A stretch of 36,381 nucleotides of DNA from Elainella saxicola E1 (GTDB taxonomy: Bacteria; Cyanobacteriota; Cyanobacteriia; Elainellales; Elainellaceae): positions 1 to 36,381 of the forward strand of contig LUGL01000002.1 in NCBI GenBank assembly GCA_002796835.1, read 5' to 3'. The translations under genes and the position numbers were made by a program. Positions within the stretch are counted from its first letter, which is position 1. Every line of letters begins with the position of its first letter. Below, one piece after another: positions 9,396 through 10,757 of this stretch. Under the pieces are notes generated by a model. The model made no database searches. It had not been told where the DNA came from and was given only the letters and a program-made list of their open reading frames with translations.

Positions 9396-9414
9396 ATATT
9401 TGGTCAGAGAAAAG

Positions 9415-10011
9415 TTAATCTAGCTCGCGTCTTCCTTCTAAAGCACGGGCTAATGTCACCTCATCTGCATATTCCAAATCCCCCCCCATTGGTAATCCAA
9501 AGGCAATCCGAGTCACCTTGGTGAATGGCTTGAGCAATTGACCAATGTATAGCGTCGTTGTTTCTCCTTCAACGCTAGGATTAATCGCCAGGATTACTTC
9601 TTTTATATCTTGTTTGCTGACGCGACGCACAAGCTGTGTGATGTAGAGCTGATCGGGACCAATCCCGTCCATTGGCGAAATCAATCCACCCAGCACATGG
9701 TATTTGCCTTTATACTCACGAGTTCGTTCTAGGGCGATCACATCTCTAGAATCGGAAACGACACAAATCACATGCTGTTCTCGGTTCGTATCTCGACAAA
9801 TTTCACAAACGGGTTCTGCAGACAGGTGAAAACAAACCGAACAAAGGCCGACTTGCTGCTTGGCTTCTAGAAGCGCTTGTGCTAAAGCCTGGACCTCTGC
9901 TTCAGGTCGTTTGAGAATATGAAGTGCCAAACGTTGAGCGGTCTTAGGACCGACTCCGGGTAGGCGTTGCAGTTGCTCGATCAGACGAGCCAAGGGACGT
10001 GTGTAAACCGT
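9415..10011 (-). CDS. recR: Recombination mediator RecR (start apparently ACG)
   Basis: RecR acts with RecF and RecO to load RecA on gapped DNA. The helix-hairpin-helix [17 protein letters not shown], the zinc finger CSVC...CEIC, the Toprim segment [13 protein letters not shown] and the GPDQL...NPSVEGE region are all intact. No ATG, GTG or TTG is available at the expected N-terminus. The frame is open back to a stop at 10084-10086 and reads (T)[13 protein letters not shown], the usual RecR opening, with ACG at 10009-10011 in the start position and GGAGG (10019-10023 on the plus strand as CCTCC) 7 nt upstream of it. A TTG at 9993 is 25 nt from that ribosome site and lies inside the conserved segment. 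I give the ACG start; it could also be a sequencing error or mutation. The product would be 198 aa. Confidence 0.9.
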
Positions 10012-10018
10012 TGGAGTG

Positions 10019-10023
10019 CCTCC
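10019..10023 (-). promoter_or_regulatory. Strong ribosome binding site before the recR ACG codon
   Basis: On the minus strand this reads GGAGG, a full match to the anti-Shine-Dalgarno core, with a 7-nt spacer to ACG 10011-10009. It is the main evidence that translation begins there rather than at the internal TTG. Confidence 0.7.
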
Positions 10024-10093
10024 ATGCTTGCAATAAAAAGAACCGAGTCGAAAACCGCTGAGATCTCTTCGATCGTAGCAATTTTACTGAATC

Positions 10094-10648
10094 TCAGCCG
10101 GATTGCGCGATCAATTCCTTAACGCACTGAATCGCTTCTTCACACCATTCCACCCACTCGGTTTCATAGCGAATGCCGCGCCGCAACGTTAAGTGATGCA
10201 GCCGATCGGCAGGAGTGGGATTTTCAGGCTGGGGAAAAACCTCCGTTTCAAAATGCTTGAGCCGATCGAGATTGGTTTGGTGAAGCTGATGCCGTCGCTG
10301 CAATTCCGCGAGTAGAGGTTCCAAGGGCGCTAATCCACCCGTTTTCAGCTTAATCATCAACGGTTCACGAATGGGGGTTGGATCGCTCGGCAAGACCGCC
10401 CAGATCGCAAGCTGCTGTTTCCCTGTTTCAGTAATGCTGTAAACGATTTTGTTGGGTCGGCCTGTTTGGGCAATTGTCTCTGGACTGATCCAGCCCTTCT
10501 TTTCCAATTCCCGCAGTTCTTTATAAACCTGCTGATGGGACGCCGACCAGTAACAGCTAATGTACTCATCAAAGCGCTTGACGAGGTCATATCCACTACA
10601 GGGACCCGCCATTGCCAGTGATGCCAAGATTGCTTGCGAAAGAGCCAT
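10094..10648 (-). CDS. PadR-family transcriptional regulator
   Basis: The 184-aa product has an N-terminal PadR winged helix (MALSQAILASLAMAGPCSGYDLVKRF..., with recognition segment HQQVYKELRELEKKGWI and wing GRPNKIVYSITETG) and a C-terminal helical dimerisation region typical of the Vir_act_alpha_C group. PadR proteins are usually repressors that respond to small ligands or membrane stress and often control a neighbouring transporter. It is transcribed divergently from devBCA across a 222-bp region with repeated TTGCATA boxes, so it most likely controls devBCA and itself. recR follows on the same strand after an 82-bp gap. Confidence 0.9.
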   Translation of the reverse strand: MALSQAILASLAMAGPCSGYDLVKRFDEYISCYWSASHQQVYKELRELEKKGWISPETIAQTGRPNKIVYSITETGKQQLAIWAVLPSDPTPIREPLMIKLKTGGLAPLEPLLAELQRRHQLHQTNLDRLKHFETEVFPQPENPTPADRLHHLTLRRGIRYETEWVEWCEEAIQCVKELIAQSG

Positions 10649-10677
10649 AGCAAAAAATTGTTTGACTATTCAAATTG

Positions 10678-10757
10678 TTGCATATAAGATCGATTGCAAA
10701 GAGTTTTATAAGCAAAAATTTGCATAATAGTTATTTTGCATACCGTTACTTTGTATA
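10678..10757. promoter_or_regulatory. TTGCATA box cluster between padR and devB (candidate operator)
   Basis: TTGCATA occurs exactly at 10678-10684, 10720-10726 and 10736-10742, and a one-base variant TTGTATA at 10751-10757, all on the plus strand. The last three are spaced 16 and 15 bp. A possible devB -10 (TATAGT, 10754-10759) overlaps the last box and a weak -35 (TTATTT, 10731-10736) lies 17 bp before it, so binding would block the promoter. Binding by PadR is inferred from position only. Confidence 0.5.

Follow-up and report, generated by a model that had tools for sequence, protein, structure and literature searches.

Well-documented, conserved non-canonical start codons are few in bacteria and comprise those of infC, sigR and some other genes. 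The closest case to have been tested is sigR of Streptomyces, which begins with GTC in 32 of 34 species and with GTT in 2 of 34 behind the strong ribosome-binding site (RBS) AGGAGGTG, is repressed by IF3, is overproduced when ATG, GTG or TTG stands in place of the native start, and was overlooked as a non-canonical start by annotation, as reported in PMC5472188. The same source describes infC, the gene for IF3, as starting with ATT or ATC and being translated in an IF3-dependent manner (PMC5472188). In Listeria, rnhC is described as having a stable ATC start, and ATA or ATT mutants of rsbW as showing lowered translation (PMC13068326); unlike recR, these cases lie within one species, and the descriptions consulted mention no ACG. 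Plastid genes also carry ACG at the start, which C-to-U editing makes into AUG (PMC9845219).

Here we examined recR, a core DNA-repair gene whose product is a recombination mediator, within a window of 36,381 nucleotides from Elainella saxicola E1 (contig LUGL01000002.1), the window being the whole stretch of DNA analysed. Our main reading, to which we assign a probability of roughly 0.86, is that a near-cognate, non-canonical codon serves as the translation start of recR in the window and in most of the sampled Cyanobacteriia. The start would be ACG in the window, in a set of Nostocales and in many other lineages, CTG in a family coded f2 and in some relatives of the window, and ATT, ATC or GTT elsewhere. 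Cyanobacterial recR resembles sigR in having a conserved non-canonical start behind a strong conserved RBS, but sigR concerns one genus and one codon type, whereas recR concerns most of the sampled class and several interchanging codons; moreover, the sigR start codon has been tested by mutation, while that of recR is proposed from sequence comparison. It differs from infC in that infC is the regulator itself, under autocontrol, and it shares with plastid genes an ACG at the start position within the cyanobacterial line of descent.

What appears to be new is the gene, the breadth of the trait, the exchange among codons and the conserved natural use of ACG, non-canonical bacterial starts as such being already known. 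Among the titles, abstracts and passages covered by the literature search, no report of a non-canonical recR start was found. A comment on Synechocystis proteogenomics makes no mention of recR, and the Synechocystis locus tag was found in one paper, which deals with gene content. A preprint by Gvozdjak and Samanta reportedly deals with genes that prefer non-AUG starts, and recR may be among them.

The recR locus of the window

The protein encoded in the window is RecR, matching NCBIfam model TIGR00615 over positions 2-196 of 196 (E 7e-84, 280 bits against a curated cut-off of 162.55, which is passed), and the genome holds a single recR match. The frame lies on the minus strand between two TAA codons (Table 1). 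A first-pass annotation made from the letters of the sequence had noted that this frame holds no ATG, GTG or TTG from its upstream stop to the conserved N-terminus, and that GGAGG stands exactly 7 nt before an ACG; both observations agree with the translation and the sequence, the spacer occupying positions 10018-10012. Directly after the ACG comes a valine codon (10008-10006), which we number codon 0, and by this count the first canonical codon downstream, a TTG, is codon 5. The sole ATG between the upstream stop and the ACG lies in another frame. Around the gene, the -10-like TAAAAT was picked out by eye and was not listed by the promoter scan, no Rfam family matched up to E 1 in positions 9400-10700, and the whole recR leader of the window folded no more stably than shuffled sequences (z 0.41).

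Table 1. Features of the recR region in the window (positions on the forward strand)
Feature	Position	Strand	Basis or remark
recR, proposed whole gene, ACG (10011-10009) to TAA (9417-9415)	9415..10011	-	translation; 198 codons before the stop
ACG, proposed start codon	10009..10011	-	7 nt 3' of GGAGG; comparison with relatives
Shine-Dalgarno (SD) GGAGG	10019..10023	-	sequence
Upstream in-frame stop TAA closing the recR frame; overlaps -10-like TAAAAT (10086-10081)	10084..10086	-	sequence; -10 by eye
TGGAG-GCA-CTCCA hairpin, would mask the SD	10012..10024	-	RNA fold
TTG, first downstream in-frame canonical codon; rejected as conserved start	9991..9993	-	not conserved
ATG, out of frame, overlaps the SD; rejected	10023..10025	-	sequence; 14 nt before the ACG
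PadR-like regulator, upstream neighbour; weak family matches below cut-offs	10094..10648	-	ends 82 nt before the ACG

Comparison of the N-terminus with close relatives bore this arrangement out and rules against an assembly slip, as three genomes of the same genus (G003, G004 and G001; loci L003, L009 and L012) likewise carry GGAGG, 7 nt and ACG. A further same-genus genome, G002 (L002), and Elainella sp. Prado103 (L031) have 99% identical proteins and no canonical start, with CTG ACA GTC replacing the CCA ACG GTT of the window; judging by the stretch shown, which is identical, these two are perhaps one genome.

Candidate start codons of recR across the Cyanobacteriia

We gathered recR loci, ranked by similarity to the window protein, from the relatives of the window, from named genome contigs (80 loci of 321 relatives) and from further families of its class and phylum; for the class genomes at least about 150 matches were listed, and genomes without a match (10/388) stand outside the counts. 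Loci were aligned at the valine codon and the frame was read upstream. With identical stretches (-45 to +60) counted once, 251 cyanobacterial loci became 237 unique ones, the count of 39 for family f2 (probably Prochlorococcus/marine Synechococcus-like) being the sole count in which identical stretches were kept, and counts out of 229 refer to the unique set before eight late additions. The Nostocales set comprised named records together with genomes of family code f32, a grouping of our own, and the 34 loci from outside the class comprised 33 of the same phylum and L109, titled Melainabacteria. Since the species are related, none of the locus counts are independent.

A canonical codon was found at codons -3 to 0 in 37 of the 237 unique cyanobacterial loci, which indicates that not every cyanobacterium needs a weak start, and was absent there in the other 200, as it is in the window. 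Within 20 codons, 174/237 loci had no ATG, GTG or TTG, and 158 of the 233 frames closed by a stop had no canonical codon back to that stop. In 26/237 loci, the nearest canonical codon stood 4-20 codons upstream with the frame open to it, and some of these codons could be real starts. By comparison, all 34 recR loci from outside the class were canonical at codon -1 or -2, 25 of them with ATG exactly at the codon that is ACG in the window, consistent with the earlier observation that this ACG occupies the place of Met in related proteins. Five control genes were read in 30 cyanobacterial loci each, counting those with ATG, GTG or TTG no more than 20 codons from the conserved core, and ffh, recF, recO and infC (all 30/30) and polA (29/30, the exception being L233) gave 149/150 in total, against 58/229 for recR under the same rule. 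As both the controls and the loci outside the class are canonical, the trait is one of recR rather than of cyanobacterial genes generally or of the method. The N-terminus of polA is variable, and this gene was a poor first control, with 26/30 in a narrower range. The canonical codons of infC lay at scattered places with no gap like that of recR, so that infC, considered as a co-regulated non-canonical gene in cyanobacteria, was unsupported in this role. Two infC loci of family f5 (L357 and L361, from G039 and G076) had no canonical codon within 14 codons of the matched start but one under the 20-codon rule.

When one candidate start was picked per locus in a fixed order of codons, which leaves the split among the rare classes approximate, ACG at -1 was the candidate in 80 of 229 unique loci, followed by ATT at 0 (46), CTG at -2 (40), GTT at 0 (16) and ATC at 0 (10), with few cases of ACG at 0 (3), ACG at -2 (1) and CTG at -1 (1), and a canonical codon in 32. 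At codon -1, these 80 ACG compare with ATG in four loci (L039, L051, L132 and L268), and at codon 0, ATT or ATC in 56/229 loci compares with ATG in 7. ATG occupies codon 0 in G048 and G039, which we take to be Gloeobacter violaceus and a Thermostichus-type Synechococcus, respectively, and many other loci have ATT or ATC there. By this alignment, the putative substitute codons occupy the canonical start position of relatives, although GTT is less certain as a start than the other substitutes.

The candidate codons were also close to invariant within groups. In the Nostocales set, codon -1 was ACG in 35/35 unique loci, against 14% of threonine codons in the gene body, and in a first f2 set codon -2 was CTG in 30/31 loci (the remaining one TTG), against 42% of leucine codons; the larger f2 count gave CTG 33, TTG 3, GTG 2 and ATG 1. 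In both sets, the codons after the start kept their amino acids through synonymous changes, whilst upstream of it, the SD apart, there was no protein conservation. Six loci with the same SD layout as the window have lost the ACG (L002, L005, L016, L017, L022 and L024), and all six have CTG at -2; over all 84 loci of that layout, from related species, CTG at -2 was found in 2/70 with ACG versus 6/14 without, the remaining 8 of the 14 being ATT loci. Codon -1 is ACA, ACT or TCA in some relatives of the window such as L002 and L016, where, as far as the sequence indicates, CTG at -2 or a still weaker codon must serve as the start. This exchange bears on the plastid parallel that the first-pass annotation had drawn, of which the ACG at the start position stands, while the comparison with editing is not needed, given that relatives have CTG, ATT, ATC or GTT there. 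An edited start of the plastid type was accordingly rejected for recR, as these codons are not convertible to AUG by C-to-U changes.

On a protein tree of 168 rows, a quick build with 28/164 inner branches starred that is weak and controls for ancestry in part, the split between canonical and non-canonical starts required 9 changes, where shuffling gave about 31 on average. Among the 149 cyanobacterial rows, codon identity required 30 changes and canonical versus non-canonical 8, and the non-canonical rows alone needed 22 codon changes, from which it follows that the start codon was mostly swapped for another weak codon, even though ATG is one step away from ACG, ATT, ATC or CTG. We read this, on a weak tree, as selection keeping a weak start.

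Two other placements of the start within the frame were weighed against these counts, and each seems very unlikely. RecR could begin a few residues later at a downstream canonical codon, which in the window would be the TTG at 9993, a codon in frame and the start taken by the mechanical list of open reading frames. Among the 156 loci without an upstream canonical codon, however, the first downstream one is found at codon 5 (8 loci), 8 (27), 12 (27), 15 (23), 18 (9) or 26-52 (34), or nowhere in the examined DNA (28), and such starts would cut into the conserved N-terminal region. Codons 1-15 are very likely translated, since synonymous changes there leave the amino acids conserved, and no GGAG, GAGG or AGGA stands in the 24 nt before TTG 9993.

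The second placement, improbable to the same degree, puts the true start at GTT or ATT at codon 0 throughout, with ACG as merely a conserved preceding codon. In 68 other loci, the favoured candidate is indeed codon 0, read as ATT, ATC or GTT, with an SD 11-16 nt off, and GTT follows ACG(-1) in 75/80 loci, compared with 270 of 976 valine codons in the body. Against it, most ACG(-1) loci have codon 0 at a distance of 16 nt from the SD register, which is the limit of that range, GCT takes the place of GTT in 3/80, three loci (L045, L121 and L127) carry ACG itself as codon 0 behind an SD 13-14 nt upstream, and 25/34 loci outside the class have ATG at -1. The remaining two codons after ACG(-1) were ATC (1) and CTG (1); as GTA and GTC are lacking at this place, avoidance of GTG alone is an insufficient explanation of the GTT preference.

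Shine-Dalgarno spacing and a putative masking hairpin

A start at the substitute codons themselves also fits the spacing of the SD, which we counted from the AGGAGG register as zero. Of the 84 loci with ACG, 72 had it at a distance of 13 nt and all had it at 12-15 nt, the distance being 13-14 nt where ACG is at codon 0 and 13 nt where it is at -2 (L296), and in the 68 ATT, ATC or GTT loci the distance was 11-16 nt, most commonly 12. An SD 4-mer in register was present in 161/167 non-canonical recR loci outside f2, versus 8/31 canonical ones, and in few control loci (ffh 0/30, recF 4/30, recO 2/18). Independent pairs contrasting SD and non-canonical start numbered 9 on the best tree and 1 on the starred branches, which gives little power and leaves the SD association not separable from ancestry. 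One pair of tree neighbours (support 94) comprises L051, with ATG and no SD, and L066, with ACG and GGAGG, the latter also having ATG at -12 and -18.

The same spacing bears on a further alternative, that translation begins upstream, either in another frame followed by ribosomal frameshifting or in frame followed by read-through of the stop, which we consider less likely still than the two placements above. The window does contain an out-of-frame ATG 14 nt before the ACG, and 92 of 197 non-canonical loci have an ATG, GTG or TTG of another frame within 45 nt that is open to codon 0. These codons share neither position nor frame (61 loci have one in one frame, 51 in the other and 105/197 in neither, with any ATG in 27), and the upstream stops close the recR frames at scattered distances. 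Furthermore, in 161 of the 162 SD-bearing non-canonical loci, the stretch 9-17 nt past the SD register holds no canonical codon whatever the frame, where randomisation of the spacer alone expects 15.6/162 loci with such a codon, and therefore an other-frame start using this SD is not a general explanation. That ATG was misread or lately mutated to give the ACG of the window, as the first-pass annotation had offered beside a rare start, is the least credible of all, for although ACG and ATG differ by one transition, the nearest relative reads CTG ACA there and not ATG, and many genera, sequenced independently of one another, share ACG behind an SD at a near-constant distance (84/229 unique loci, including L076 on the complete Calothrix sp. 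PCC 7716 chromosome), findings which support instead its other proposal, that ACG serves as a rare start codon.

In the window, a 5-bp hairpin, TGGAG-GCA-CTCCA, would mask the SD by its predicted pairing. Its three core pairs were found in 22/49 ACG loci outside the Nostocales set, versus 0-2 when the partner was slid along, and in 1/35 loci of the Nostocales set. The GGAG side is nearly fixed, which makes the hairpin evidence one-sided. No contrast was seen in the 9 CTG loci with an SD (hairpin in 6, and also in 6 with the partner slid by one) or in the 68 ATT, ATC or GTT loci (8, versus up to 10 slid).

Family f2 stands apart, with CTG in 33/39 loci and an SD in 1/30 non-canonical ones, and the SD argument is not applicable to it; elsewhere the substitute lies at a fixed place after the RBS. 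Most f2 recR loci (L158-L187) have a TAGATT(C)-like, -10-like element about 30 nt upstream of codon 0, the TAG or TAA of which is the common in-frame stop at codon -11. Judged by eye, this element would put the RNA start near the CTG.

Proposed initiation and the annotation of recR

The comparison of sequences displays the absence of canonical starts, the position of the substitutes, the tracking of the SD and the invariance of the codons, and from these we infer initiation with fMet, a low RecR level, IF3 sensitivity and a benefit to the cell. Outside f2, a strong SD about 13 nt upstream (in the AGGAGG register) would hold the 30S subunit while the near-cognate codon is decoded at low efficiency by the initiator tRNA (fMet), across one mismatch, or two for GUU compared with AUG. 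The output of RecR would be low and possibly IF3-sensitive, as in infC and Streptomyces sigR, and the most likely purpose would be a RecR level that is low or can be tuned through IF3. An E. coli figure quoted in PMC11497404 puts the output of CUG at 0.86% of that of AUG, and one study describes no reporter expression from CUG in chloroplasts or E. coli (PMC9845219). With output so weak or nil, the use of CTG in f2 would need additional help.

We give even odds to a broader proposal, in which a weak recR start would be kept by selection as a class-wide 'governor', making RecR follow IF3 and the fidelity of initiation. ACG, CTG, ATT, ATC and GTT would then interchange more often than they change to ATG, with the strong SD compensating in most lineages and the SD-masking hairpin acting in the relatives of the window. 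If true, this would represent translational control of RecFOR repair across a whole class and would make ACG a natural, conserved bacterial start. The recR gene would be a natural series for studying how initiator tRNA, SD and IF3 share in start selection.

These results suggest a risk that gene callers assign cyanobacterial recR a wrong start or omit it. A survey from 2016 lists recR as absent from three cyanobacterial strains (PMC5101192), and these absences, as given there, might merit a second look that admits non-canonical starts. The ten cyanobacterial genomes of our own sample without a recR match are each at least 90% complete; some may be real losses and others assembly gaps. In six genomes (G103, G112, G258, G306, G330 and G334), recR was found in two or three pieces, and in G330 the two pieces, separated by 51 nt on the same strand, join at query position 133, an arrangement that suggests an insert.
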